Assembly (NCBI GenBank): GCA_017470145.1
Contig: JAFUFB010000024.1
Span: forward strand, 1 to 61,707
DNA length: 61,707 nt
Direction: 5' to 3'
DNA from: Clostridia bacterium
Lineage (GTDB): Bacteria > Bacillota > Clostridia > Christensenellales > Aristaeellaceae
Below the pieces are notes generated by a model, which saw nothing but the letters and a program-made list of their open reading frames with translations, ran no database searches and had not been told where the DNA came from. This document shows positions 6,001-50,512 of this stretch, piece after piece. Position 1 is the first letter of the stretch. Every line of letters starts with the position of its first letter. Made by a program: the position numbers and the translations under genes.

Positions 6001-6457
6001 CCGTATTTAACTGCTGCTCCCCATTCCATTCCGCATCTGATTCCGTTTCTACCTCCGATGGTTGTCCCGGTTCATCTATACCATCATCTGCCGTAGTTTC
6101 ATCGGTCATTCCGCCCGGCGCCGCGCCATTTCCCTCAAATTCATCGGGATCGTCATTATGGATATTGGTTCCCGAATCATCATTCAAGCTCCCGGTATCA
6201 ACCATCGGCATGCTATCCCCATCACCCTCGCCATTTTCCTTCGCTTCCGTGATGGATGGATTCTCCAAGAGGCCAGTGATACTGATATCATCGTCCTTTT
6301 CCTGATTTGCCGGAAAAAGGTCAGGATTCAAAGCCCCCGTCATCTCCTCTACGCCCGCAGCAACCGCCGGAGTTATTACAGAAGCCACGTCGCCCCAGAA
6401 CATCATCATCGCACAAAGCAGGGCCACCAGCTTCTTCATTTTGTCATTCCTTCTCAT
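1..6457 (-). CDS. Giant secreted pilin/adhesin-like surface protein, partial
   Basis: An open minus-strand frame of 2,152 codons runs from ATG at 6457 off the left edge, so the C-terminus and any sorting signal are not visible. The start has AGAAGGA about 7 bases upstream. Residues 1-34 form a Sec signal peptide (MKKLVALLCAMMMFWG core). Residues 35-215 are an acidic linker. From about residue 390 there is a chain of immunoglobulin-like domains joined by the phrase LGSLKI: SpaA/Cna-B-like units, and at least three Spy0128/FctA-like isopeptide pilin domains (about 739-872, 1500-1640, 1770-1922) with the recurring pattern MRD...G.Y.F, then QND..G.I.FG.I. A Cna-B domain (NWVEENEDQSLRPGSITY) lies near the edge. 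By family, such domains form self-generated isopeptide bonds in cell-wall pili or adhesins. Function as an adhesin or pilus shaft is inferred. Confidence 0.9.
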   Translation of the reverse strand, partial: MRRNDKMKKLVALLCAMMMFWGDVASVITPAVAAGVEEMTGALNPDLFPANQEKDDDISITGLLENPSITEAKENGEGDGDSMPMVDTGSLNDDSGTNIHNDDPDEFEGNGAAPGGMTDETTADDGIDEPGQPSEVETESDAEWNGEQQLNTEDEEESGSVFDDQPHFILTEEDVTEGQDTLPNEETNASEQVAEEEGQETAEEPAELIPAEGIYNPFDMASLLAMNDLQLFALTEVEDEVKPTDDFVDISQVKISFSNSVEATLPSEGPYYYVVVCGYQGEVVSGIPEKVYYMQKLSALKTITINANAYSSISGNATNGRLTKVQVYIYESATLLSGLISASTCESILNGTDNTFNRARKINDFPLKNSGWSMKNSVLTWTFTLSEPVAEPELGSLEIQKIVKINGNETTSGIMDGTYGFSIHSMEAASEEEGISVEITINNGNVTSVSGNAIKTGAGARIDQLPIGNYTVTETTPWLSSKYIENQDGSTRSVIVQKDALATVPFVSNRNEGSLEIGVETEGKEDNENDAFQFTVELRKKDKNPASGYTLYTSTGDAIAFSEGAHDFTIYPGKSVEIIHIPAGFEYTVTQKTIPENYSLAQSEEATVSGTISTSKASAKFDYQYSEPITTTEAHAITLWVGEGEGESRWRPEQIQYVLMANTKNGQAVNLEALGVQTIINAQQPNYAADWNNLPLYTDNGAEIEYQILRGDVPRYSSENGEQVSGAENTWRFTYRLQSFEVNLTAYKKMRDDSAPGSYEFVLEGLNSPPMPSTTNDGDGLSTRTRQNDSAGFINFGTIVYGMGDVGSSTMDGEVTYRYEIREKMPGSATAENGYTVGDMVYDPSVYNIAITVKKENGNLRLIGPVITKGNEAVDRAAFVNARKGRGSLRINTSVTVNDLPLSAENSQADRNLVSGRYYYAISGASLAGTVKSLEIQYINGVATAAQLDENAISIENGSVTLTGLIEGEYSVTALMPTNGTELKAGSLTQMANVSANDQEGIQSANFQYNINTAGLQLTKTVTGKMDNYTAFRFEIRLDPPTGVQLADSYPMLRNMGTESTALQFTNNVAEVSLKNGQSITIQGIPSGTGYIISEDNYGNLGYSQGAVTNLSGNIPASGVIQANVNNVFSAEGTTTFKVKKSFINGDLADQQFVFSLKQVAGERSETQITSKLPATVHAYTERSTGKQQEIAFNTEGLIFTEADIGQTYWFLIEEDTSTISLDEYNIDHTHHVMYGDVRKQWIQVYVIDNDEGGISILKSAAEGEPDAVFTSEQLGSLKIEKSIIADREGISVGEHADGTYVFQVYEDDACLTDAKGADNLPIGEKRITIAQGEAEVIEIADLHAGVYYVKEVASGNRRIQENQKVYPVQVTAGRSGDQVTGVVNVEGVYETVELSATASWENEGQDVSRRPEHVTFTISAKDASGALIQLQEEGIDAQKNGEKENSYRVLWSGLPRYSAEGTEITYSVSVEPVSNYTLTNMAYDTANEVWVATYKLGVAAVNLSGTVKMRDQQELGSYQFELSTQNVLTPMPDGKHGNSKETRNDQAGEIEFGWITYTLRDLAKRGTAEYEKEKTFEYTVKQIFSGRDEDNYVSLDTRFDPAVYTVKVTVTYDPDEGTMEVSRVQYEKKIYPSISFSQAATKIEFENELLGSLKVINQVLINGEEISSPMAAGTYTYGVFTDPECQKPAVTVSGTSLARLQFNISNAWEVETKLRYLRGGTYYVRELETTNSYVVMDSETKTVIVSPGKNDDEIEEEAVARLTNAYSWAELPIQGAVDMRDETQRGTYRFTMTAMDGGPMPLPKAPQTISVLGDKLTTQNDAEGGIDFGTITFVTADLFRTAEDRISARTYKYSFKQVIDDAAAANQNILGETKYDATEYQLHVTLSYDETQKKIKIAEQRLYRVEQGVLENAETIRFENELLGSLKIQKQVQTDSDTLAVGKLADGVYVFKVYEDEGRTEAKKANEEDVGDIEIRVTDGWADLHEVDGLHAGRYYVKEIESQNKQIQVNPDGEWVTVVGGESGEQVSNEDGVAIIINTYETTERHVVINWVEENEDQSLRPGSITYTLTGEDSDKQTVALNILGVQTTQVADSTNQYKVNWENLPVYTKDGKQITYDVKVNPVDHYSQTGKEFDAATNTWTITNTLGTAY

Positions 6458-20458: not shown

Positions 20459-21867
20459 TATCCGATCGCCCCCTTCATTTCAATCCGAATCAGGTTGTTC
20501 ATCTCTACCGCGTATTCCAGCGGCAGCTCCTTGCTGACGTTTTCCGCGAATCCGCTGACGATCAGCGCCCGGGCCTCCTCTTCGCTGACGCCCCGACTCA
20601 TCAGGTAGAACACCGCCTCGTCGGAGATGCGCCCGATGCGGGCTTCGTGCCCGATGTCGGCCTGACTGGTCCGCACATCCATGGCGGGAATCGTGTCCGA
20701 CCGGGAAACGTCGTCCACCATCAGGCTTTGGCAGCTGACGGCGGATTTGCTGTTTTCCGCCTTCGGATTCACCACCACCGCGCTGCGGAAGGTGCTGATG
20801 CCCCCGTCCTTAGAGATGCTGCGGGTGTTGACATAGCTGGAAGTATCCGGCGCGTTGTGCACCACCTTGCATCCCGTGTCCAGGTTCTGGCCCTTGCCCG
20901 CGAAGGTGACGCCGGTAAACTCGCTCCGGGCCCCCTTCCCGTTCAGCACGCTCATGGGATACAAATAGCTGACATGGCTGCCGAAGCTGCCGGAAATCCA
21001 TTCCACCTTGCCGCCCTCTTCTACTCGGGCCCGTTTGGTGTTCAGGTTGTACATATTCTTGGACCAGTTTTCGATGGTGGAATAGCGCAGGGTCGCGTTC
21101 TTCGCCACGAAGAGCTCCACGCAGCCCGCGTGCAGGTTGGCCACGTTGTATTTCGGCGCGCTGCATCCCTCAATGAAGTGCAGGTATGCCCCTTCCTCCA
21201 CGATGATCAGCGTGTGTTCAAACTGGCCGGCCCCCGCCGCGTTCAGCCGGAAATAGCTCTGCAGCGGAATTTCGACGCTGACGCCTCTGGGCACATACAC
21301 GAAGCTGCCGCCGCTCCAGACCGCTCCGTGCAGCGCCGCGAATTTATGATCCGTCGGGGGCACCAGCTTCATGAAATGCTCGTGGATCATGTCGCCGTAT
21401 TCCCCATGGAGGGCGCTTTCGATGTCCGTATATACGACGCCCAGCTTCGCCACATCCTCCCGGATGTTGTGATACACAACCTCCGAGTCATACTGGGCGC
21501 CCACCCCTGCCAGGGAGGCCCGCTCCGCCTTGGGGATGCCCAGCCGATCAAAGGTGTTCCGGATGTCGTCCGGCACATCCTCCCATCGGGTGTTCATCCG
21601 CTGGGCGTTGGGGCGCACATAGGTGGCGATATGGTCCATATCCAGCCCTTCGATGGAGGGGCCCCAGTCCGGCATGGCCGTCTGGTTGAAAATCTCCAGG
21701 CTCTTCAGCCGGAATTCCCGCATCCATTCCGGGTCGTTTTTCTCTTCCGAGATCTGCTGTACAATCTCCTTCGTCAGGCCGTCGATCCGGTAGCTGTCCC
21801 GATCCTCGTATCGAAAATCGTAAAACGCCCGGTTAACGTCCTGCACCTGGGTCTTTTCGTCCGTCAT
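20458..21867 (-). CDS. sufB: Fe-S cluster scaffold protein SufB
   Basis: 469 residues, full length. Typical blocks: FRLKSLEIF, the YVPRGVSVEIPLQSYFRLN stretch, FIEGCSAPKYNVANLHAGCVELFV, and the C-terminal HEARIGRISDEAVFYLMSRG. Main scaffold for cluster assembly together with SufC and SufD. ATGA overlap with sufC. Confidence 0.97.
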   Translation of the reverse strand: MTDEKTQVQDVNRAFYDFRYEDRDSYRIDGLTKEIVQQISEEKNDPEWMREFRLKSLEIFNQTAMPDWGPSIEGLDMDHIATYVRPNAQRMNTRWEDVPDDIRNTFDRLGIPKAERASLAGVGAQYDSEVVYHNIREDVAKLGVVYTDIESALHGEYGDMIHEHFMKLVPPTDHKFAALHGAVWSGGSFVYVPRGVSVEIPLQSYFRLNAAGAGQFEHTLIIVEEGAYLHFIEGCSAPKYNVANLHAGCVELFVAKNATLRYSTIENWSKNMYNLNTKRARVEEGGKVEWISGSFGSHVSYLYPMSVLNGKGARSEFTGVTFAGKGQNLDTGCKVVHNAPDTSSYVNTRSISKDGGISTFRSAVVVNPKAENSKSAVSCQSLMVDDVSRSDTIPAMDVRTSQADIGHEARIGRISDEAVFYLMSRGVSEEEARALIVSGFAENVSKELPLEYAVEMNNLIRIEMKGAIG

Positions 21868-22616
21868 CCTTCGTTCACCTCAAACCGGCTGAAGCCATCC
21901 CGGCTGATCTCCTCGATCAGCTCCGGTCCACCTTCTTTCACGATGCGCCCGCTGACCAGCACGTGCACCCGGTCCACCTTCAGGGCGGAGAGGATGGCCG
22001 CGTTGTGGGTAATAATCAGCAGGCTGGCCTTTTCATTCTTCCGGAATTCCTCCACCCCGCGGCTCACGGTACGCACCGCGTCCACGTCCAGGCCGGAATC
22101 CGTCTCGTCCAGAATGGCCAGGCTGGGCTTCAGCAGCAGCATCTGCAGAATCTCCGCCTTTTTCTTTTCCCCGCCGGAGAAGCCCACGTTCAGATCCCGC
22201 TCGCCATAGCTCTCGTCCATGCTCAGGGCGGCCAGCGTCTCCTTCACTTCCTTGTGGAAAACCCAGGGGCGCAGCTTCTCCCCCTTACCCTGCTCGATGG
22301 CCGTGCGGATAAAGTTTTCCAGGCTGATGCCCGGCACCTCTACCGGGTTCTGGAAGCTGAGAAAAAGCCCCGCGCCCGCCCGCTGGCTGACGCTCTTTTC
22401 CAGCAAATTCTCCCCTTTGAAGGACACTTCGCCCCCCAGTATCGTATATCTCGGATCCCCCATCAGGGCGCCGGCCAGGGTGGATTTCCCCGCGCCGTTC
22501 GGCCCCATCAGCACATGGGTTTCTCCTTCGCCAATCTCCAGATCCACGCCCCGCAGGATCTCCTTTTCCTCCGCCGCCGCGCGCAGCCCGGAAACTGAAA
22601 GCAAACTGTTCGCCAT
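21864..22616 (-). CDS. sufC: Fe-S assembly ATPase SufC
   Basis: 250 residues. ABC-type ATPase with Walker A GPNGAGKST, signature GFSGGEKKKAEILQML and Walker B LAILDETDSGLD. AGGAGG lies 11 bases before the ATG. First gene of the operon; order sufC-sufB-sufD-sufS-sufU differs from the Bacillus sufCDSUB order. Confidence 0.97.
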   Translation of the reverse strand: MANSLLSVSGLRAAAEEKEILRGVDLEIGEGETHVLMGPNGAGKSTLAGALMGDPRYTILGGEVSFKGENLLEKSVSQRAGAGLFLSFQNPVEVPGISLENFIRTAIEQGKGEKLRPWVFHKEVKETLAALSMDESYGERDLNVGFSGGEKKKAEILQMLLLKPSLAILDETDSGLDVDAVRTVSRGVEEFRKNEKASLLIITHNAAILSALKVDRVHVLVSGRIVKEGGPELIEEISRDGFSRFEVNEG

Positions 22617-38984: not shown

Positions 38985-40157
38985 TCAAATCGTCTGGCTG
39001 CCCATGGGGCTAATCCGGAAATGAAATGCAATATCATTGCTGGGATACTGCTCGAAGAACAGTGTCTCCATGCGCTCCATAATCATGTTCCCGGTGCTGT
39101 AGTTCACCGTCGGCAAAAGCATCGCCACGGTGTTGGCGGAAAACCGGGTTACAATATCCCCCCGCCGCAGATTCTCTTTTAGAATTTCCATCAAGGCCGC
39201 CATCCCGCTTTCCTGCCGAACGATGTTCAATTGCTCTCCGGGATTGCCCAGCATAATCACAGCCAGGAAGATCGTGGAGCTTAACCGTTCCAGGTTTCTC
39301 ATCTGAATGTTGTAAAATTCCTTGAAGGTTTGATAGTCGCATACAAAGGGGCCCCGTCGCTCCTCCGCCTGGAGCTCATTTCGGATGATATCCAGGTTAA
39401 ATTTCACCGTCTCTCCGGCCTGAGAAAGCTCCTGATAATATGCCTGCAAATCCTCCCCCGGCTCTTCTCCCAATGCTTTTCTGGTTCGCCGGGCGACAAG
39501 ACGATATTCCTCCAGGGCTTTGTCGCTCTGGTTCAGGTTGACCATGGCCTTCATTAGTTCGATATGAATCTGCTCATCCAGGCTGTCGATCTTCTCCGCC
39601 TCCCGGCAGATGGCCACGATCTCATTATACGCTTCCCGCTTTTTCAAAATATGGATCATCGAATAGACCGCTTCCAGATATGCGTGGTGAAGCTGGTTCA
39701 CATACAGCGTCCCATCCGCCATGTCTCCCGTCTGGAACAGGTCACCCCGATAGATCCGGATCGCCTCTCGTAGCTTCTTCTCCTTCTCCGGCTCGCTTGC
39801 TGCCGCCTTCGCCGCGTGAATCGCGTCTGAAAACGCAGTAATATCCACAGTCACGCCGGCCGGAGCAGACCAGCGATAGCCGCCTCCCTCGCTTACGATG
39901 CATGCTGCCAGCTCTTCATCGATCTCCCGAAGCAGTCCCCGCGTCCGGCTCACCAGTGTTTTCAATGCCCCCGCCGGATTGTCGGAAGGCCGGTTGCCCC
40001 AAAGCTCCCGAATCAGCCGGCGGGATACCATGGCCTTCCCGCCCTGCAGAATCAGATACGTAATCAGGCTAACCCCCTTCGGGCTCTTCTCTGGCAGCCG
40101 GTCATACGTTTGGTCTGTATGCACGATGCAGTCACCCAGCAATTGAATCTGAATCAT
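38985..40157 (-). CDS. SARP-family regulator: winged helix, BTAD and degenerate GGDEF-like domain
   Basis: 390 residues from ATG 40157 (MIQIQLLGDCIVHTDQTYDRLP), with GGAAGGGG 6 bases upstream. OmpR-type winged helix (about 1-90; LIRELWGNRP and ALKTLVSRTRGLLRE), bacterial transcriptional activation domain (about 95-240; TPR-like helices, GDLFQTGDMADGTLYVNQLHHAYLEAV), and a C-terminal domain (about 270-390) that recalls GGDEF (LKENLRRGDIVTRFSANTVAMLLP) without the catalytic signature. Last gene of the sortase/SipA-like operon, so probably its local regulator; a direct target site is not visible. Confidence 0.88.
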   Translation of the reverse strand: MIQIQLLGDCIVHTDQTYDRLPEKSPKGVSLITYLILQGGKAMVSRRLIRELWGNRPSDNPAGALKTLVSRTRGLLREIDEELAACIVSEGGGYRWSAPAGVTVDITAFSDAIHAAKAAASEPEKEKKLREAIRIYRGDLFQTGDMADGTLYVNQLHHAYLEAVYSMIHILKKREAYNEIVAICREAEKIDSLDEQIHIELMKAMVNLNQSDKALEEYRLVARRTRKALGEEPGEDLQAYYQELSQAGETVKFNLDIIRNELQAEERRGPFVCDYQTFKEFYNIQMRNLERLSSTIFLAVIMLGNPGEQLNIVRQESGMAALMEILKENLRRGDIVTRFSANTVAMLLPTVNYSTGNMIMERMETLFFEQYPSNDIAFHFRISPMGSQTI

Positions 40158-40258
40158 TTTGTACCCCTTCCGCCCGTCCATACATGATGCCCGTCCGTTA
40201 TAAAATCGATATATCTATCCGTCGGCCGGCAAACCCAGGCGAAGCCGTTGCCTTCGTG

Positions 40259-42175
40259 TCAATCGAAGAAGACGCTTCCATCCTCTTCCGTGATTTCCTC
40301 GTCCGTCTCTCCCAGCCAGGCTCCGATAATCGCCTGGCCCCAGGTCGTGTTTTCAGCGATGCTGTAGTCCTGCAGATCGTCCCGATAGAAGTCGAAATAT
40401 ACGTTGCTGTATACGGGAATCATCGGCAGTGCTTCGTTAAATCGCTCCTGGAACGCAATCCAGTGCTGCATGTAGGTCAACACATCCCCTGGCTCCGTCC
40501 GCCGCATGGCAACGGCCGCCTCGTACAGCGCTTCGTCCTTCAGGTTGGTATAGGTCCAGCTGCCGTCCGGGGCGAAGTTGATCGAAGGGTCGAACACGAT
40601 GTTGAAGTTGGAGGCCAGATAAATCATGTCTTCCTCCCGCTCCTCCTGGTGATACCACCGGCTTAGCAGCTCCACCATGGGCACAGCCTCCATGTTGAGC
40701 CGAATCCCAACCTTCTCCAGATTCTCTGCCAGGTTTGTCTGCAGCGATTCGTAGATGTTGTTTCCTTCCGGATAGATCATCCGCAGGTCCAGCACCACGC
40801 CGTCCTTCTCCCGCAGGCCCTCGTCGTTGATCCGCCACCCCGCCTCATCCAGCATTTGGGCGGCCTCCGCCATGTTCAGTTCATAGGTGTTCAGCTGCTC
40901 CAGGTTCAGGGCTTCGTATTCCGCCAGCTTCTCCTCGTATTCCGCCAGAGCTTCCGCGTCGCTCTCGTCCTCCGGCTCTTCCAGGGGATAAGGCATCGTC
41001 CCCGCGATCAATCCGTACATCCATTGGCCAATGCCATAATAGCCGTCCACCCGCATGCCGAATCCGCCGGTGTAGTCGGCAGTCGTCGCGTCCCGGTCGA
41101 AGCAGTAGGCGATGGCCTGCCGAACCGCCAGCTCTGAAACCGTCGGCCGCTCGCAGGAGAAGCTGATGTAGCTGAGCCCAAGCCGTGGGTAGTTGGACAT
41201 CCCGAATCCTTCTCCGATCAGCCCAATACCCTGGGCGATCTTGTCCGCCCGCATCGTCTTGTTAAGGAGGTCGAACTCGCCGTCCTCCAGCTGGTCCACC
41301 ATGGTCTCGATCTCCGCCAGGGTATAGGTCAGATGATCGATGGCTGGCCGTTGTCCTCTGCTGTTGCCCTTGTATTCCGGGTTGATCTCAAACTCCGCCA
41401 CTTCCCCGTCCCAGGAGGTCAGGAGGTAAGGCCCGCTCACCACGCGTGGATGAGCCATGTATCCGGTGTCTGGGTCGAGAATGGTCTCCGCCAGCAGCTC
41501 CGCAGAAAACAGCGGCTCTTCGATCTTCTCGTCGATATTTGCCAGGTAAACGCCCTGTCCATCGTCCCGCACCTCCACTCCCGGCGCGATTTCGTAGATC
41601 GGATAGGGGTTGCAGGAAAGAAGCCCCATCTCATAGAAGAAGGGCAGATATTCATGGTTCAAGGTCACGGAGAGCGTGTCCTCCGTCAGCACTCGGACCC
41701 CCGCCAGCGGTTCCCCCGCTTCCATATATTCCTGGTATCCCACAATTTGCTCCCGGCGCAGGGGACTGGCCCCCAACTCATTCAGCACGGGAGAGATGGA
41801 AAGCAGATAGGAGAAGGCGTAGTCCCAGGCCGTAATCCGTGTCCCGTCAGAGTAGAACAGATCGTCGTATAGCGCCATGATGTAGGTGTGATCCCCCTCA
41901 GCGTTGATGGTCCCCGCCACGCCGCTGACCACGGAAGGATCCACGGTAAACATCCCCTGCTCCGCGTCCCAGTAAATCAGGTTGTAGGCGTGCAGCAAAT
42001 CGCGGACATCCGCGTCAGAGGTGGAGTTTCCCCACATCTCAGTGAAAAACTGGCCCCGCATCGGCGTTGAATTTCCTACCTTCAGGCGCGTCTCCTCGGG
42101 CTGAGTGTCTTCTTTCGCCCAGGCTGCGCCCACAAAAAACGTCAAGGCCAGAAGGATCGATAGCATTCTTCTCAC
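40259..42175 (-). CDS. Secreted family-5 (oligopeptide-type) solute-binding protein, orphan
   Basis: 638 residues. Signal peptide MRRMLSILLALTFFVGAAWA ends in an ordinary SPase I site with no lipobox cysteine, unusual for a Gram-positive binding protein. SBP_bac_5 fold: DDLFYSDGTRITAWDYAFSY, VSGPYLLTSWDGEVAEFEINPEY, VRQAIAYCFDRDATT, MLDEAGWRINDEGLREKDG. An acidic coiled insert (about residues 395-430) is lineage specific. No permease or ATPase is nearby. It lies between the sortase/Cna-B gene and the SARP gene on the same strand, so it may be a peptide-sensing rather than a transport component (inference). Confidence 0.9.
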   Translation of the reverse strand: MRRMLSILLALTFFVGAAWAKEDTQPEETRLKVGNSTPMRGQFFTEMWGNSTSDADVRDLLHAYNLIYWDAEQGMFTVDPSVVSGVAGTINAEGDHTYIMALYDDLFYSDGTRITAWDYAFSYLLSISPVLNELGASPLRREQIVGYQEYMEAGEPLAGVRVLTEDTLSVTLNHEYLPFFYEMGLLSCNPYPIYEIAPGVEVRDDGQGVYLANIDEKIEEPLFSAELLAETILDPDTGYMAHPRVVSGPYLLTSWDGEVAEFEINPEYKGNSRGQRPAIDHLTYTLAEIETMVDQLEDGEFDLLNKTMRADKIAQGIGLIGEGFGMSNYPRLGLSYISFSCERPTVSELAVRQAIAYCFDRDATTADYTGGFGMRVDGYYGIGQWMYGLIAGTMPYPLEEPEDESDAEALAEYEEKLAEYEALNLEQLNTYELNMAEAAQMLDEAGWRINDEGLREKDGVVLDLRMIYPEGNNIYESLQTNLAENLEKVGIRLNMEAVPMVELLSRWYHQEEREEDMIYLASNFNIVFDPSINFAPDGSWTYTNLKDEALYEAAVAMRRTEPGDVLTYMQHWIAFQERFNEALPMIPVYSNVYFDFYRDDLQDYSIAENTTWGQAIIGAWLGETDEEITEEDGSVFFD

Positions 42176-42264: not shown

Positions 42265-45200
42265 TTATTCGAGGCAGTCGTCAATGTTCAGGAAGACCTG
42301 GCCTTCTCCCAGACCCAGAGGCGTATCCAGATCCTCGATGATGATCGTGCCGTCGTTCGGCAGATAGAGCACCGTGTACTCCACGTTCCGCCCTGGCATG
42401 GTGCCTGCTACGCGAACCAGCGTCGCCCTGTATCCTGCGATGGACGGGCTCGCCACGCTGTAGGCCTCCCCCTCCCGGTAGGTTTCGGTGTAGGTTTCCG
42501 CAGCGGTGTCGCCGTTCAGGTAGCGATAGTTGATGGTCAGGTTGTATTCCGTCGTCGAAATCTCCGGCGGAATGCGGGTGTTGGTAAAGACGGTGGTCGT
42601 TCCCGTAGTCACAACGGAGGTCTGCGTATATCCCGCGATGGCGGGTTCCGTCCAGGTGTATGTCACCTCCGCGCCATTGGCGGTACGCGGCAGCCCGTTT
42701 ACCGTGGCTGTCCAGCCGTTGGCTGCGGATAGCGTAACCATCCTGGTTTCGCCATTGGATCCGCTCAGCACCATGTTCAGGGAGGCCGGCCGGGCCGTCT
42801 CGTCCTCGTCGTCCCATACCTTCTGCACTCGGACTGCGACCAGCTCGGGCACGTGGGTGTTGGTAAAGGTGGTCAGCGTGCCATTGGTGGCGCTGGTAGT
42901 GTTTGGATAGCCCGCTACCGGCGCTTCGCGCCAGCTGTAGCTTACCGCGCTCCCGTTTTCGTAGGTATATAGGTCTTCCGCTGTGTAGCTCCAGTTGTTC
43001 CCCGCGTTCAAGGTGATGGTCTCCACCGGCTCATTGTTCGCCAGCAGGTAGACGGTGAGGGAATTCGGCCGAATCCCGTCCTGATCGTTTCCGTCGTCCC
43101 ATACCTTGGCGATGGAGCGTGTGGTTCTGGCCGGCTCGTGGGTGTTGGTAAAGGTGGTAGTATTACCCGACACCGTCTGAGTACTCGTGTATCCCGCGAT
43201 GGCCTCCTCCGTCCAACTGTAATTGATTTCCCTTCCGCTTTCTCTGGCGGGAACCTCGAAGGCGGCGCTCCAGCCGTTTTCTTCGCTGAGGGTCACCGTC
43301 CGTTCTGTTTCGTCGTCCCCCCGCAGCATAACGCTCAGGCTGGCCGGCCGCATTCCGTCGCGGTTGTCCTCGTCCACCCAGATCTTGTTGACCGCCAAGG
43401 TCACGGTTTCGGGCGTGTGCGTGTTGGTGAAGGTGGTGGTCGTTCCATCCGTCGCCGCCGCCGATTCATAGCCATCCACAGTCTCTTCGTTCCAGGTGTA
43501 TTCGATGGCGGCCCCGTCGACGTTCACGGGCAGTTCCTCGAAGGTCGCTGTCCAGCCGTTGATGGCGTTCAGCGTCGCGCTGCGGATGGTCGTTCCATTG
43601 GCCATCAGGTTCACCGCCAGGGTGCTGGGCCGCATCGCGTCCCGGTCGTTGTCGTCCTCCCAGACCTTGGTCACGGTCAGGGCTGTGGTCTCCGGGAGGT
43701 GGATGTTGGTCAGGGTCGTCACGGCGCCGGCTGTCGCGCTGGTCCCGGTATACCCCGCCACGTTTTCTTCCGTCCAGGTGTAGGCGATGGCCTCTCCCCC
43801 TTCGTATACGGGGAGATCCTCCACTGTGGCTGTCCATCCGTTGGCCGCGTTCAGGCTGACCTGGGTTCCGTTGGAGAGCGTAACCCGCACCCCCTCCGGC
43901 CGGATCCCGTCCTGATCGTTTCCGTCTTCCCAAACCTTGGTTACGGTCAGGGAGGTGGTCTCCGGACGATGGGTGTTTGTCAGGGTGGTGATCAGGCCGT
44001 CTGTGGCTGTGGTCAGTTCATATCCTGCCACCGCTTCTTCGTCCCAGGTGTACGCGATGGGCCGGCCCTCCGCGTTCCGGGGCATGCCGTTCGCCGCGGC
44101 GGTCCAATTGTTTTCCGCGCTCAGCGAGAAGGTAGCCGCCGCTTCCCCGTTCTCCTTCAGCGTAATGGTGATGCGCCTCGGCCGCAGCCCGTCCTGATCA
44201 TCGTTGTCCGCCCAAACCTTCGTGGCAATGAGATCCACAGTGTCGATTTCGTGGCTGTTGGTCAGGGTGGTCGTAGTTCCGTCGAGGGTGCTAGCGCTCG
44301 TGTATCCCGCGATAGCCTCCTCCGTCCAGGAATAGGCGATGGGCTGGCCATTTTCGTTGGCCGGCAGGCCTGTAATCGTCGCCGTCCAGTTGTTCTCGGC
44401 GTTGAGCACCCGTTCTTCCCCGTTGCTTAGGGAGACGGTGATGCTTTCGGGCCGCAGGCCATCCCGGTTCTCGTCGTCGTCCCAGACCTTGATCACCGTC
44501 GCCACCGTCGTGTCAGTTTCGTGGCGGTTGGTAATCACGGTGCTGTTCCCGGTGGTCACGCTGCTGGTTTGCTCGTATCCGCTTACCTCTTCCTCCGTCC
44601 AGCTGTAGGTGATTTCCTCCCCTGAGCTAAACCGGGGCAGACCTGTAATGGTTTCGCTCCACCCGTTGCCCTCGCTCAGGGTCACCCTGCGGCCATTGCT
44701 CAGCTCGATGTTCAGGCTCCGGGGGCGCATGCCGTCCTGATTGTCGTTGTCGTCCCAGATCTTAGAAACGGTGAGATCGATGGTTTCCGGCGTATGGGTA
44801 TTGATGAGGGTGGTGGCAGTTCCGTCCGTAGCCGAGCTCAGGGTGTATCCCGCCACCGGCTCCTCTTCCCATCTGTATTCGATGGGCTGCCCCGCCTCGT
44901 TTACGTAGAGGCCGTCCATCCTGGCGCTCCATCCGTTGCTTTCCCGCAGCGTCACGGAACCCATCAGCTCGTCATTCCCGTATAGATTTACCTGCACCGT
45001 CTCCGGCCGGAGGCCGTCCTGGTTCTCGCCGTCGTTCCATTCCTTGCGGATGGAAAGGCTGGTAGTGGCCGGCCGATGGGTGTTGATCAGCTGGTTTCCG
45101 TCCACGCGCAGCTCGTATCCCTCCACCGTCTCTTCGGTCCATGTGTAGGCAATTTCCTGACCATTTTCGTAGGCAGGCAGGTTTGCGATCGTCGCTGTCC

Positions 45201-46419
45201 AGCCGTTTTCTTCGTTCAAAACAGCCGTCATTCCGTTGGAAAGCACAGCCGTTACGCTCTCCGGCCGGATGGCGTCGCGGTTGTCGTCGTCCTCCCACCG
45301 CTTTTCAACGGAGACGGAGGTCACCGCGGGGGTATGGTGGTTGGTCAGCGTCGTGGTGCGTGTCTCTTCGTCGTAGACGGAGCTCGTCATCTCGTATCCC
45401 TGGACCGCTTCCTCCGTCCAGGTGTAGCGAATCTCGCCCCGGTTGTCGAATTTCGGTACGCTCAGCGTGGCGGTCCATCCGTTCTCCGCCGTCAGCTCCG
45501 CCCTGTCTCCGCTGCTCAGGGTCACAGTCAGGCGCTCCGGCCGAATTCCATCCTGATTATCTGCGTCGTCCCATACCTTGGCGATGGTAATCTCGGTCAT
45601 GATCTTCCGCTTGGTCATGGTGCCGAAAATCACCAGCCGCCCGCTGGTGTTCGCGTTGGCGCAGGTGGAAAGCGCGACGATCTTCGTGGCGTCCGTCAAT
45701 GCGCTTTCGTCGAAGTAGGTAACCGTGGTGCCGACGCCGACGCCGCCTTCCCCGCCGGATCGCAGGAAGTCCAGCACGCTGTTCATCCGGTTGCCGACGC
45801 TGTAGATGTTCCCTTCGTAGGCGTCGGTCTGGACGACGGCGAAGAACTGAACGTCGTAGATATCGTTTTCCGTAATAATGACGCCCGTCTCCCGGCCGTT
45901 CATGCCGTCCAGCGCGCCGAACATGGCCCCGCTGTCCATGTGGTGGCCGTAGATGACGTTGTATGAGTCGGAGAAGTCCGGGCTGTTCGCCGCCGCCAGG
46001 TAGATCGCTCCCGTCAGGCTGGGCCGACCATAGATGTCGATCGCGGCGTAATAGGTGTCGTTCGGCCCCTGAACAACGGGATAGTCGATGTCCGTTCCGT
46101 ATACGGTCAGCCAGGCCCGGTAGTCCTGGTTAACCTCCTTCAGGTCGGATCCCGCCAGCGGCGTCTCGTAATCGTCGATGATTTCCGGCTTGAACTGCAG
46201 CAGATCCCACGCGTTGGAGGAGGCAGCCCGCTCCGTCGCGAAGGAGTCGTACAGCACGTATCCGGAGTAGAGAATCAACACCGCGGCCAAAAGGCCGGAA
46301 AGAAGCGTCACCACGCCTCCCCCGGCTCCCAGCGCCAGTTCAATTACTTTGTCGACAATTGTTTTTTCCGGAGCGACATGCTTTGTCGGATCCTTCATCG
46401 GATCGTATTGATCAGCCAT
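42265..46419 (-). CDS. Class B sortase fused to eleven Cna-B domains and a MucBP-like domain
   Basis: 1,384 residues, with AGGAGG 6 bases before the ATG. Cytosolic N-tail, one membrane helix (about 33-58), then a class B sortase domain (about 75-270) with catalytic His159 (NVIYGHHMDSGAMFGAL), Cys253 (LSTCANANTSG) and Arg261 (SGRLVIFG). From residue 275 eleven tandem Cna-B domains of about 90 residues follow, each opening with V.K.W.D..N.DG.RP. A MucBP-like domain (YNLTINYRYLNGDTAAETY...) is last. The C-terminus (DTPLGLGEGQVFLNIDDCLE) has no LPXTG, helix or basic tail, so anchoring is by the N-terminal helix. Sortases normally act on separate substrates; the fusion suggests self-anchoring, tethering, or a scaffold that joins itself to pilins. 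Confidence 0.92.
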   Translation of the reverse strand: MADQYDPMKDPTKHVAPEKTIVDKVIELALGAGGGVVTLLSGLLAAVLILYSGYVLYDSFATERAASSNAWDLLQFKPEIIDDYETPLAGSDLKEVNQDYRAWLTVYGTDIDYPVVQGPNDTYYAAIDIYGRPSLTGAIYLAAANSPDFSDSYNVIYGHHMDSGAMFGALDGMNGRETGVIITENDIYDVQFFAVVQTDAYEGNIYSVGNRMNSVLDFLRSGGEGGVGVGTTVTYFDESALTDATKIVALSTCANANTSGRLVIFGTMTKRKIMTEITIAKVWDDADNQDGIRPERLTVTLSSGDRAELTAENGWTATLSVPKFDNRGEIRYTWTEEAVQGYEMTSSVYDEETRTTTLTNHHTPAVTSVSVEKRWEDDDNRDAIRPESVTAVLSNGMTAVLNEENGWTATIANLPAYENGQEIAYTWTEETVEGYELRVDGNQLINTHRPATTSLSIRKEWNDGENQDGLRPETVQVNLYGNDELMGSVTLRESNGWSARMDGLYVNEAGQPIEYRWEEEPVAGYTLSSATDGTATTLINTHTPETIDLTVSKIWDDNDNQDGMRPRSLNIELSNGRRVTLSEGNGWSETITGLPRFSSGEEITYSWTEEEVSGYEQTSSVTTGNSTVITNRHETDTTVATVIKVWDDDENRDGLRPESITVSLSNGEERVLNAENNWTATITGLPANENGQPIAYSWTEEAIAGYTSASTLDGTTTTLTNSHEIDTVDLIATKVWADNDDQDGLRPRRITITLKENGEAAATFSLSAENNWTAAANGMPRNAEGRPIAYTWDEEAVAGYELTTATDGLITTLTNTHRPETTSLTVTKVWEDGNDQDGIRPEGVRVTLSNGTQVSLNAANGWTATVEDLPVYEGGEAIAYTWTEENVAGYTGTSATAGAVTTLTNIHLPETTALTVTKVWEDDNDRDAMRPSTLAVNLMANGTTIRSATLNAINGWTATFEELPVNVDGAAIEYTWNEETVDGYESAAATDGTTTTFTNTHTPETVTLAVNKIWVDEDNRDGMRPASLSVMLRGDDETERTVTLSEENGWSAAFEVPARESGREINYSWTEEAIAGYTSTQTVSGNTTTFTNTHEPARTTRSIAKVWDDGNDQDGIRPNSLTVYLLANNEPVETITLNAGNNWSYTAEDLYTYENGSAVSYSWREAPVAGYPNTTSATNGTLTTFTNTHVPELVAVRVQKVWDDEDETARPASLNMVLSGSNGETRMVTLSAANGWTATVNGLPRTANGAEVTYTWTEPAIAGYTQTSVVTTGTTTVFTNTRIPPEISTTEYNLTINYRYLNGDTAAETYTETYREGEAYSVASPSIAGYRATLVRVAGTMPGRNVEYTVLYLPNDGTIIIEDLDTPLGLGEGQVFLNIDDCLE

Positions 46420-46474: not shown

Positions 46475-47266
46475 TCATAGATTGTTTCTTCTCAGGATGG
46501 TGATGACCGTTCCCAATATTTCTTCCTCGTTGACCGCGCCGAAGAATCGGCTGTCCGCGCCGCCGTTGCGGCTGTCCGCCAGCACGAAATACTGTTTCTC
46601 CCCCAGCGTCAGCGGGTATTCCACAAAGCCCGCGTATTCAGGCGTGCTGTAGAAGATGTTGGTTTCGATCATCGTGTTGCCGTTGACGATGAGCCGATCC
46701 CCCTCCCCGATCTCCACCGTATCCCCCGGCCCTGCCACTACGCGGCAGATGAAGGTGGTCATGGGAGGATCCGCCGGGTCCGCAAACCCGATCCAGTCCA
46801 ACGCCTTCCGCAGGGCTGTCTTTTCCGGCCGAGCCGTCTCGATCACATCCTCGTGCTCGTAGGATTGCTCCAGCGAGTCCGTCGGTTTCTTGAATACGAT
46901 CACATCCTGAGCGTGAATGCTTTGCTCCAGGCGATAGAAGAGCACCAGGTCGCCATGGTCGATGCGCGGATACATGTCCGCCGTAGGCATGATGGTGATC
47001 CCCACCAGGTGGAAAAACAGGATATAGATCACCAGGGCGAAGGAAATCGTGCGAATAATCAAATCCCGCAGCGCTCGCATGTGGCGCTTGTGGAGCTTCT
47101 CCCTCCGGGCCGCCTTTTCCTGGGCGTTCAGTTCCGCCGCGGTAGGAGAAGCGCTCTCCGCCAGAGCCTGCGCGCTCTGTTTCGCCGCTGCGGGAGAAAC
47201 GCTCTCCGCCGATGAACCCTGTGGTTGATTCTTCCGATGCGCCTGATGGTCCTTGTTTTTGCTCAT
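46475..47266 (-). CDS. SipA-like signal-peptidase homologue lacking catalytic Ser and Lys
   Basis: 263 residues from ATG 47266, with AAAGGA upstream. Low-complexity Ala/Ser/Gln-rich N-tail, one helix (about 67-90), then an S26 signal-peptidase fold with the late boxes intact (VVAGPGDTVEIGEGDRLIVNG; LADSRNGGADSRFFGAV). The nucleophile box reads PTADMYPRIDHGD, so Asp97 stands where Ser belongs. The lysine box reads FICRVVAGPGD, so Cys174 replaces Lys. In S. pyogenes pilus loci SipA is likewise inactive at both sites (Asp and Gly) and is needed for pilus polymerisation. First gene of the operon, 55 bases before the class B sortase fusion: probably an assembly chaperone, not a peptidase. Confidence 0.88.
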   Translation of the reverse strand: MSKNKDHQAHRKNQPQGSSAESVSPAAAKQSAQALAESASPTAAELNAQEKAARREKLHKRHMRALRDLIIRTISFALVIYILFFHLVGITIMPTADMYPRIDHGDLVLFYRLEQSIHAQDVIVFKKPTDSLEQSYEHEDVIETARPEKTALRKALDWIGFADPADPPMTTFICRVVAGPGDTVEIGEGDRLIVNGNTMIETNIFYSTPEYAGFVEYPLTLGEKQYFVLADSRNGGADSRFFGAVNEEEILGTVITILRRNNL

Positions 47267-47370
47267 TGCTGTTCCTTTCCCAGCCCTTCCCATTTCAGGG
47301 TAAAATCCCGGTTCTCATGCCCTCTGCTCGATGCATTTCGAGTTGCACGAAGCCGCACAACCCCATGTTT

Positions 47371-48252: not shown

Positions 48253-49024
48253 AACCCCCGATACGATTGTAATTTGTTTTCCAGAGTGTGGCATTTTGAT
48301 ACCCTCTCCTATTTTTCACATGGACCATGGTTTTGTAGAGCGCTGGCGGTAATATCGCTTCATAGAACGACCTGTAGATCTCCGCAATGTCTATTGTCTG
48401 ATCTCCCACAGGCATCCGCAGGATTCTATAATCTGTCCAGAAAACATTCGCCTTCACGCCTGTGTCCACCATACCGTTATTTCTGTAGAAACGAAATCGG
48501 CGCTCTCGCTTTTCTCTATCGGCATTGCTTTGGGCTTCATCCGGATCCTCGACTTCAAGAACTGCTACTTCAGCATCAGGCAGCACCGTCTCGCACAATG
48601 CCGGTAGGAATTTCCCGTCGATCCCAGTACCACGTCGAGTCTCATCCACAGCGAAATAATCCAGAAGAAAGAGATTATCTATGGTCACAAAGAAAGCGTA
48701 GGCCAGGATGTGAGACTCCTCTATGAAGCCATAGCAGCGATAGTTTCCCTTCTGGATCGCAGATTCAATAATCGCCAGAGACTTCCTTTCATTCTTTGGA
48801 AAGTCATTGACCATCCTGTGATTGTATATCTCGTGCACCTGATCCATCGTCAGTGCTTCTACTGTCAAGGCGTCCACGCTCCCTTCTGAGCTCAGATTGT
48901 ACCACATATAAGGGTGTTCAGGATAGTTCATGACCACGATAATTCGCGACGCGCTCACGGCTTCGTTTATTCGTGACGCGTTCATGGCTGCGACTATTCG
49001 CGACGTGTCGCCCAGGAGAATCAT
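48245..49024 (-). CDS. GNAT-like acetyltransferase
   Basis: Up to 259 residues; ATG 48931 (MNYPEHPYMWYNLSSEG) is a more natural start because the 31 residues before it are encoded by 27-base tandem repeats. The central part (MVNDFPKNERKSLAIIESAIQKGNYRCYGFIEE...LLDYFAVDETRRGTGIDGKFLPAL) resembles the GNAT acetyl-CoA-binding core, with RRGTGIDG in the Q/RxxGxG/A position, and RRFRFYRNNGM the late helix. Substrate unknown. Next to a divergent toxin-antitoxin-like pair. Confidence 0.7.
   Translation of the reverse strand: MILLGDTSRIVAAMNASRINEAVSASRIIVVMNYPEHPYMWYNLSSEGSVDALTVEALTMDQVHEIYNHRMVNDFPKNERKSLAIIESAIQKGNYRCYGFIEESHILAYAFFVTIDNLFLLDYFAVDETRRGTGIDGKFLPALCETVLPDAEVAVLEVEDPDEAQSNADREKRERRFRFYRNNGMVDTGVKANVFWTDYRILRMPVGDQTIDIAEIYRSFYEAILPPALYKTMVHVKNRRGYQNATLWKTNYNRIGGLH
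48936..49017. repeat. Three tandem 27-base repeats at the 5' end of the GNAT-like gene
   Basis: Units with the core ATTCGCGACGCG (variants ATTCGTGACGCG and ATTCGCGACGTG) repeat at 27 bases, in phase with the reading frame (9 residues each, AMNASRINE-like). They could change protein length by slippage, or lie wholly in the leader if translation starts at 48931. Confidence 0.7.
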
Positions 49025-49055
49025 GAATGAGTCTGCTGATTATCCCTATCACCCA

Positions 49056-49080
49056 CCCCGGCATTTATGTCGGGGTTTTT
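49056..49080 (+). terminator. Orphan terminator-like hairpin
   Basis: CCCCG (49056-49060) pairs with CGGGG (49071-49075), followed by TTTTT. No plus-strand gene precedes it, so it may be left from a lost gene or insulate the HipA-like pair. Confidence 0.6.
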
Positions 49081-49100
49081 CGTCTGGAAGGAATTATATC

Positions 49101-49129
49101 TTGACGGATGGTCGGTCAACCGATATAAT
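49101..49129 (+). promoter_or_regulatory. Promoter of the XRE/HipA-like operon
   Basis: TTGACG (49101-49106), 17-base spacer, perfect TATAAT (49124-49129). TTGAC and GTCAA (49115-49119) form an inverted repeat across the -35, a likely autoregulatory site. Confidence 0.8.
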
Positions 49130-49154
49130 AGAAGGGAAGAAAGAAGGGATGAAC

Positions 49155-49616
49155 ATGACGATGCAATCTATGCTGCGCGAGAAGAACATGTCCATGTATC
49201 GTCTGTCGCAGATCAGCGGTGTGCCCAAGACAACCGTGATTGATATTTGCTCCGGCAAAAGCGATATCGAAGGCTGCACCGCAAAGACAGTCATGCAGCT
49301 TTCCCGGGCGCTGGGCTGCACCATGGAAGAATTGATGCAGATCGACAATGCCCGTTATGACCGCACAACCGGGCTACCCAAGGATGAACGCTATCTGGAA
49401 AAGGGGCTTCCTGCCTATCTTCAAAAGTCTATCGCGGCGATGCAAGCATCCTGGGCGATCTTAGATGGCGGCGGGAATGATTTGCATTGGGATATTTATT
49501 GGAGCGAATTGAACGCTGATATTAACAGCGCGGAAACGGAGCAGGAGATTTCCAGCGACCAAGCCTGGTATCTTCGCAGGAAATATCTGCGTATGGAAAA
49601 GGATGATAACGTATGA
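49155..49616 (+). CDS. XRE-family antitoxin-like regulator
   Basis: 154 residues from ATG 49155, 6 bases after GAAGGG; ATGs at 49149 and 49161 are also possible. N-terminal helix-turn-helix (MYRLSQISGVPKTTVIDICSGKSD...TAKTVMQLSRALGCTMEELMQ, about 14-62). The C-terminal half (LPKDERYLEKGLPAYLQKSIAAMQ...) would contact the partner. Its stop overlaps the kinase start by 4 bases, the arrangement of HipB/HipA pairs. Confidence 0.85.
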   Translation: MTMQSMLREKNMSMYRLSQISGVPKTTVIDICSGKSDIEGCTAKTVMQLSRALGCTMEELMQIDNARYDRTTGLPKDERYLEKGLPAYLQKSIAAMQASWAILDGGGNDLHWDIYWSELNADINSAETEQEISSDQAWYLRRKYLRMEKDDNV

Positions 49617-50512
49617 TTGATTTCAGTACGCTACCTCGGAGGAACAAAACCTATGCCGGGGCGAATGGCAGCAAGATCGCAGTGATGTATGGGAATGAAC
49701 TGTATATGCTCAAATTTCCTGGTGTAGCCCGGAAAAACAAGGATATGAGTTATGCTAACGGCTGTATCTGCGAGTATCTTGGCTGCCATATTTTTGAGAT
49801 TGTGGGCATCCCGGTACAGAAAACACTGCTTGGCACATTTACCCGGAACGGGAAAGAGAAGATTGTTGTGGCCTGCAAAGATTTCACCACGTCCGATACC
49901 GTGATCCAGGACTTCGCTTCCCTGAAAAATACGATCATTGATTCTGAACATAATGGATATGGCACCGAATTGTCAGATATTCTGATGGCGATTGACGAGC
50001 AGCAGGCGATTGATCCTGTCGCCTTAAAGCAGCGATTTTGGGATATGTTCATTGTGGATGCGCTGATAGGCAACTGGGATCGGCATAACGGGAACTGGGG
50101 CTTCCTGTATAACAGCAGAACGGATGAAATGACGTTGGCCCCTGTCTTTGATTGCGGCAGCAGCCTTTTCCCGCAGGCGGATGACGATATCATGCAGGCT
50201 GTCCTCGACGATCCTACGGAACGAGACGTTCGCATTTTTAAGATTCCTCTTTCCGGCATTCGACAGAATGGACAGAAGATCAACTATTATGATTTCCTTT
50301 ATGCTGGGAAGAACCAGGACTGCAACGCGGCGCTGAAAAGAATCCTGCCCCGAATTGATATGAAGAAAATCGACCAGCTGATTGATGAAACCCCGTTTAT
50401 TTCCGATCTGCAAAAGCGATTCTATAAGACGATGCTCGCGGAACGGAAAGAGAAGATTTTGGATCGGTCTTTGCAAAGAATCAGGAAAAAGGAAAGAAAC
50501 CTTGCAAGATAA
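49613..50512 (+). CDS. HipA-like kinase toxin, compact CtkA-type
   Basis: 299 residues. HipA-C fold: an ATP-lysine region (YMLKFPG), the catalytic loop in DALIGNWDRHNGNWGFLYN (about 143-161), and a metal-binding DFG-like segment LAPVFDCGSSLFP (about 170-182). It lacks the N-terminal subdomain of E. coli HipA, so it resembles short HipT/CtkA forms. By family it would phosphorylate a translation-related target. Role as a toxin is inferred from the pairing with the XRE gene. Confidence 0.85.
   Translation: MIDFSTLPRRNKTYAGANGSKIAVMYGNELYMLKFPGVARKNKDMSYANGCICEYLGCHIFEIVGIPVQKTLLGTFTRNGKEKIVVACKDFTTSDTVIQDFASLKNTIIDSEHNGYGTELSDILMAIDEQQAIDPVALKQRFWDMFIVDALIGNWDRHNGNWGFLYNSRTDEMTLAPVFDCGSSLFPQADDDIMQAVLDDPTERDVRIFKIPLSGIRQNGQKINYYDFLYAGKNQDCNAALKRILPRIDMKKIDQLIDETPFISDLQKRFYKTMLAERKEKILDRSLQRIRKKERNLAR

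Follow-up and report, generated by a model that had tools for sequence, protein, structure and literature searches.

A class B sortase fused to a pilin-like stalk and a conserved C-terminal tail that is inherited together with an OppA-like gene

The window analyzed here comprises positions 1 to 61,707 of contig JAFUFB010000024.1 from a Clostridia bacterium of the family Aristaeellaceae. On its reverse strand, at 42265..46419, one open reading frame (ORF) with an ATG start encodes a protein of 1384 amino acids (aa) in which a class B sortase, a long stalk, and a short C-terminal tail are joined in a single chain. The fusion is genuine and not an assembly join, and the part that stays constant among its relatives is the C-terminal tail, not the stalk. 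We place at roughly one half the probability of our explanation as a whole, namely that a pilin polymerase of the Spy0129 type has been combined with a basal-pilin-like stalk and with a tail that docks an OppA-like protein. Such a protein hints at an uncommon means of constructing or decorating the surface of the cell. If the explanation is true, the sortase carries the pilus base itself, with no hand-over to a separate anchor, which would be a different assembly logic, and the tail would serve as a surface signal at the C-terminus that lacks a hydrophobic segment and has a dedicated binding protein. Our searches of the open-access literature turned up no account of either the fusion or the tail, and the four tail strings that we tried gave no match there; this is weak evidence of novelty.

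A sortase, a stalk, and a tail in one reading frame

The chain begins with a membrane anchor helix at about residues 32-57 (46249..46326, reverse strand, as are all features of the fusion), and the strongest hydrophobic segment of the protein starts at residue 32. The class B sortase domain follows at about residues 91-270 (45610..46149), recognized by Pfam (residues 105-268, 34.8 bits against a cut-off of 26.6), by NCBIfam, by a match to the PDB, and by alignment. Residues 276-1285 (42565..45594) form eleven Cna-B domains with pairwise identities of 34-57%, which Pfam matches as 11 Cna_B stretches totaling 628.9 bits. Lys and Glu occur at the expected places in all 11 repeats, and Asn was found in 10 by pattern and in the eleventh by eye; we take these three to be the isopeptide residues. 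A MucBP-like domain lies at residues 1294-1344 (42388..42540), and the chain closes with the tail IEDLDTPLGLGEGQVFLNIDDCLE (42268..42339), identified by its match to a tail profile. The C-terminal sequence contains no LPXTG motif, and its last 120 residues hold no strongly hydrophobic segment (best 19-residue window, 0.77), so that the protein does not have the makeup of an LPXTG-anchored protein.

Much of this layout had been proposed in an earlier sequence-only reading of the window. The ORF, its domains, and their coordinates were borne out by the ORF call, Pfam, and NCBIfam, as were the anchor helix, the eleven repeats, the lack of an LPXTG signal, and the catalytic residues His159, Cys253, and Arg261, which are among those invariant across eight aligned sortase domains. 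The proposed MucBP-like domain stands as a match, yet its 20.2 bits fall under the Pfam cut-off of 23. The C-terminal tail and the neighboring genes had gone without mention.

That reading had also pointed to a possible sequencing or assembly error joining two genes near 45.6 kb, which relatives with two separate ORFs would betray. The window's genome is indeed a draft of 30 contigs. The relatives show one frame: sortase and stalk are continuous in the uncut L015 (1681 aa) and L016 (1311 aa), and up to the contig ends that cut them in L017 and L018, all from other assemblies. L015 is recorded under the name Christensenella sp. UBA2853 and is 57% identical to the window's fusion in the best segment. 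A sortase-region search of 61 genomes gave seven same-genus orthologues besides the window's, each in one frame with E below 1e-70, and two further fusion genomes lie outside that search: G063, whose locus L315 was read, and G066, judged from tail and sortase matches inside one 474-codon frame. Because relatives from other assemblies show the same architecture in one frame, the error is refuted, and we assign it a negligible probability.

The orthologues differ widely in their stalks, which consist of 14 Cna-B domains in L015, 10 in L016, at least 9 in L017 and at least 7 in L018 (both cut), two plus a proline-rich part in L094, MBG_2 in L095, and one or two MucBP domains in L096, L097, and L315. 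Despite these variable stalks, the tail is intact in 11 of the 12 uncut fusions, and the twelfth, L094, retains only its last part. We rejected stalk length as a needed feature, since several orthologues have no Cna-B domain. The earlier suggestion of a tether, if it needs eleven Cna-B domains, is likewise unsupported by orthologues that have 14, 10, 2, or none.

The sortase lies in a pilus-type gene context

The best NCBIfam model for the fusion is the class B sortase TIGR03064 (105.8 bits, against a curated cut-off of 153.75). Among 15 matched PDB sequences, 12 are named sortase B and three have other names; these three include the closest solved structure by sequence, 3psq (E 5.6e-26), which is Spy0129. 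His159 is the first His of an HH pair, the catalytic one in Spy0129. Of 14 orthologue loci, 11 have frames that match both patterns, YGHHMD and LSTC...GR; the three that fail are L315, L318, and L284, the last two of which each hold only part of the gene. In the available text of PMC3019223, 3PSQ is described as the class B sortase Spy0129, which knockout showed to be required to polymerize the pilin Spy0128, which accepts the consensus motif (E/Q/V)(V/P)PTG, and whose operon also encodes the basal pilin Spy0130 and SipA. On homology, the fusion's sortase would be a class B pilin polymerase of this type.

Directly upstream of the fusion, at 46475..47293 on the reverse strand, lies a gene for a SipA-like signal peptidase I homologue of 272 aa (Pfam Peptidase_S26, 73.9 bits). 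Alignment with a homologue in L199 that retains GTSM and KR shows that its catalytic Ser is replaced by Asp (ADMYPR) and its Lys by Cys (ICRVV), and because both residues are replaced, the protein probably lacks peptidase activity. A SipA-like gene adjoins the fusion in this way at all 14 fusion loci (the window, L015-L018, L183-L189, L317, and L318), with Asp for Ser throughout; Lys is replaced by Cys or Leu in 13, and the Lys-position pattern is unmatched in L186. SipA itself, as far as the accessible text of PMC4049620 describes it, carries Asp in place of the catalytic Ser and Gly in place of Lys, and pilus assembly requires it.

Upstream of the SipA-like gene, nine of the 14 fusion loci carry a pilin that ends in ISPTG, a hydrophobic stretch, and Lys/Arg (L015, L016, L184 with two pilins, L185, L187, L188, L189, L317, and L318). 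ISPTG is invariant in six aligned pilins, and in L015 the gene before the pilin encodes a large protein that matches SpaA, DUF7601, and PA14. A profile of the six pilins gave matches below E 1e-30 in 9 of 45 genomes of the genus, eight of them fusion-bearing. Pilin match and fusion thus occur together in 8 genomes, pilin alone in 1, fusion alone in 2, and neither in 34 (Fisher p 1.8e-6), and removal of the genomes that supplied profile rows (G002, G008, and G009) leaves counts of 5, 1, 2, and 34 (p 1.4e-4); both tests ignore relatedness. The window's genome is one of the two among the ten fusion-bearing genomes of the genus that have no match. Given these counts, the pilus reading appears good for the family and weaker for the window's genome.

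The closest known system is that of Spy0129 (SrtC1), SipA, and FctB in the FCT-2 pilus operon of Streptococcus pyogenes, which contains the solved sortase nearest in sequence to the fusion's. The two share a SipA-like neighbor with Asp for Ser, pilins with a PTG-type motif (here in most relatives of the fusion), and a sortase followed by a basal-pilin-like part, as the numbering of the loci suggests (Spy0129 for the sortase, Spy0130 for the basal pilin). They differ in that sortase and stalk here form one chain with no LPXTG at the base, and the available portions of the FCT-2 descriptions make no mention of a tail or an OppA-like partner. FctB is described, in the text available from PMC7900414, as an Ig-like protein with a proline-rich tail that halts polymerization and is anchored by SrtA; the Cna-B, MucBP, or proline-rich parts of our stalks, together with the gene order, agree with a basal pilin. 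Of the roles that the sequence-only reading had offered, that of a pilus base draws support from the context: the SipA-like gene at 14 of 14 loci, the ISPTG pilin at 9 of 14, and the Spy0129-Spy0130-like order. PMC13257024, in its accessible part, concerns a class A sortase with Cna-B-bearing substrates.

The tail and an OppA-like gene are inherited as a unit

The tail was found by comparing the C-termini of the orthologues. It spans about 22 residues with the pattern [IF][DE][DE]Y-x-T-[PA]-L-G-...-G-[DE]-C-[FYI]-[DE], and it also closes many giant surface proteins of the lineage. We tallied the 22 C-terminal positions of 85 tails that a profile had detected ahead of an OppA-like gene, the profile itself being a selection: the residue at -1 is acidic in all 85, Gly occupies -5 in 84 and -14 in 78, and -20 is acidic in 83. 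A stop codon lies at most 12 residues from the end of the profile match in 85 of 85, and exactly there in 70. Cys at -3 was rejected as an invariant (69 of 85). The window's own tail scores E 1.8e-10 against a 12-row profile and 4.1e-8 against a 61-row profile, in both of which it is itself a row.

Across the sampled genomes, tail matches were confined to the window's taxonomic family. The 12-row profile matches 41 of the 45 genus genomes at E <= 0.05, the weaker matches being partly chance, in open frames of up to 11,632 codons. The 61-row profile matches 9 of the 296 genomes of an order sample; among those listed, these are all 6 of the genus and 3 of 17 from other genera of the family, with no match in the remaining 273, of which those listed belong to other families. 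A phylum sample of 398 genomes gave a match in the window's own genome alone. When the 61 tails were compared with known families, NCBIfam gave no match at E <= 1 and Pfam a single one, of one tail to SNAPC3 (E 0.026). Within the window's genome, the tail also ends large Cna-B proteins in a 3660-codon frame (contig C16) and a 985-codon frame (C25), both of which reach contig ends. A DNA-pattern scan of that genome for tail-like endings gave 35 matches against 25 for the reversed pattern; of 30 loci from the scan, only those two are tails, and the window's own tail does not fit the pattern. On contigs C2 and C9, four pattern matches lie at mirrored positions, as if one sequence were present in opposite orientations.

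The presumed partner of the tail is encoded immediately downstream of the fusion, at 40259..42175 on the reverse strand. This secreted OppA-like (SBP_bac_5) protein of 638 aa has an apparent cleavable signal peptide and no lipobox, and it matches OppA structures distantly (9p48, E 2.7e-21). Such a gene follows 11 of the 12 uncut fusions. More generally, an OppA-like gene lies within 1.5 kb downstream on the same strand of 65 of 110 strong tails and 23 of 36 weaker ones. Viewed from the other side, among the OppA-like genes listed and countable (n = 114), 85 lie after a profile-found tail. The other 29 were read by eye, with a script that favors tail-like endings, and showed a diverged tail before 16, a doubtful one in L314, and none in 12. 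About 101 of the 114 among the matches listed therefore follow a tail; homologues less like the window's fall outside this set, which may bring down the overall proportion. Three other genera of the family contributed 4 tails, and each is followed by a protein judged OppA-like by eye. The doubtful case, L314, is a sortase-like frame whose last residues, AGDCFD, may be a bare tail; the OppA-like gene lies 780 bases further on.

The SBP_bac_5 domain is shared with the family 5 solute-binding proteins of the OppA/AppA type, from which the proteins described here differ in having no lipobox in 92 of 102 and in having genes that adjoin surface proteins. We rejected the idea that they are lipoproteins, as a lipobox-like stretch occurs in only 10 of 102. 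Pfam found no permease among the 24 window proteins scanned, and the only ABC ATPase among them (21864-22616) adjoins a SufB/D-type gene. The OppA-like C-termini are acidic, with a mean of 5.6 Asp/Glu in the last 14 residues (n = 102), and in 40 of the 102 proteins the final two residues are a bulky hydrophobic one and Asp or Glu, similar to how the tail ends.

On a FastTree tree of the 102 OppA-like proteins, which includes near-copies, eight defined tail types require 9 changes, compared with a least possible 7 and a mean of 60.7 after shuffling, and none of 200 shuffles was as low. Four of the types each form one side of a branch, and the mixed GDCxE type needs 4 changes. Distances between OppA-like proteins correlate with those between tails (Mantel r 0.78) and with those between the 60 residues before the tail (0.64), and at comparable OppA distance the tails differ by 0.30 and the preceding 60 residues by 0.63. 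This shows that tail and OppA-like gene are inherited as a unit. We did not take such co-inheritance to prove contact, since the stretch preceding the tail shows a correlation as well. Whether tail and OppA-like protein amount to a new docking system, with the tail as ligand, co-inherited types, and one version built into a pilus sortase that is its own base, is a proposal that we hold tentatively and rate somewhat below even odds.

A second gene cluster and other sortase fusions

At three loci (L196, L199, and L201), the parts of the fusion occur as separate genes: a sortase-like protein, then a protein with a proline-rich linker and the tail, then an OppA-like gene, in a cluster type whose pilins end in LPSTGG. 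The gene order of this second cluster is the order of the parts in the fusion and therefore supports a working link among them. Inspection by eye showed neither of the usual His and Cys motifs in the sortase-like protein, which in L196 nevertheless matches the Pfam sortase family over the cut-off (40.8 bits). The first part of the separate tail protein looks by eye like a small pilin domain, with Pfam matches that are sub-threshold only. A sortase-like gene without the His and Cys motifs (by eye) also lies in an LPSTGG pilus cluster at L193, and in L196 and L201 the sortase-like gene comes after a signal peptidase homologue that, in the alignment, has Gly or Ala where the catalytic Ser would be. 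In L319 (G062), a sortase-like frame of 476 codons has no tail, and a hydrophobic segment lies close to its C-terminus.

In a class sample of 391 genomes, we read nine long-frame class B sortase matches among the matches listed, assigning domains by eye. Three of the nine carry added surface-type parts, and five have no added surface domain. The three belong to other families and have no tail: L379 is a giant pilin-like protein with a sorting signal that runs in frame into a class B sortase, L380 a sortase followed by Ig-like repeats, and L381 a sortase with a proline-rich linker and a further domain. In L383, again from another family, one 435-codon frame encodes a signal-peptidase-like part with GSM kept, followed by a class B sortase. 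As all four of these loci contain a sortase fusion, such fusions are not unique in themselves; the combination of fusion and tail was seen only in the window's family.

Weighing the explanations

In the mechanism that we propose, the membrane-held sortase would join ISPTG pilins with the aid of the SipA-like helper. The stalk, continuing the extracellular side of the sortase in the same chain, would replace a basal pilin and receive the pilus, and this base would stay tied to the membrane through the sortase's own N-terminal helix. The tail would be a linear peptide to which the secreted product of the neighboring OppA-like gene docks, such that sortase, pilus base, and peptide-binding protein would form one surface complex. 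The polymerase and base half of this scheme draws on homology and gene context and the docking half on gene pairing. Its starting points were observed directly, namely the architecture, the conserved catalytic residues, the orthologues, the gene context, the conservation of the tail, and its pairing with the OppA-like gene; for the window's own organism, the scheme supposes that pilins are still present.

Several results weigh against it. The window, L017, L018, L183, and L186 show no ISPTG pilin upstream of the fusion, and a profile search found none in the window's genome at E <= 1e-5. Since none was found, the window's operon may be an orphan, or pilin genes may be missing from the draft, which is 84% complete. 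The sortase scores below the curated cut-off of its best class B model, and the window's tail is a diverged version of the family tail, two residues longer and with Asp in place of Gly at -5. No OppA-like gene lies downstream of 45 of the 110 strong tails. In the largest group, the 60 residues preceding the tail correlate better with the OppA-like protein than the tail does (Mantel r 0.755 versus 0.535); given the linkage of tail and OppA-like gene, much of the match between them is explained by co-inheritance.

The missing pilins, together with the many tail-bearing proteins that pair with OppA-like genes and have no sortase, would also fit an ordinary sortase whose stalk merely displays the OppA-like protein beyond the wall, the pilus link being incidental in the window's organism; eleven Cna-B domains could span a wall. 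Against such a reading stands the SipA-like gene: its counterpart in streptococci is required for assembling pili, and the gene adjoins the fusion at every one of the 14 loci, the window included. We regard this reading as unlikely, at about one part in five of our belief. Slightly less likely still, in our judgment, is that the tail serves as a non-canonical cell-wall sorting signal, which a sortase cuts in or near TPLG and which thereby anchors the fusion and the giant proteins to the wall. A precedent exists in oral streptococci, where, according to the available text of PMC4974636, a class B sortase anchors AbpA through a short C-terminal signal, LPKTS followed by AVK, with no hydrophobic segment. 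The likeness lies in a class B sortase tied to a surface protein with a short, non-hydrophobic signal at its C-terminus; AbpA, however, is encoded by a separate gene, and the tail contains no such motif and no LPXT-like order. Also in favor of a sorting signal, the separate tail-bearing proteins of L196, L199, and L201 begin with a signal-peptide-like stretch and by eye show no other anchor. The tail, though, is conserved to its last residue, which is acidic in every one of the 85 tails that the profile found beside an OppA-like gene; this counts against its being cut off, as a removed piece need not be conserved. Tails also occur in G007, G025, G031, G033, and G065, where no sortase match was found, though these genomes are 54-84% complete. 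A polymerizing sortase with its own base and a docking tail remains the explanation that we prefer.

Surroundings of the operon

Other genes of the window lie outside this argument. A SARP-like regulator at 38985-40181 had no match in 25 compared loci. Upstream of the operon, at 48930-50512, is a helix-turn-helix and HipA-like pair, and further on there are DUF4143 ATPases and a sub-threshold integrase match. At the start of the window (2-6457, reverse strand), a Cna-B protein of 2152 aa with a signal-peptide-like start is cut by the contig end.

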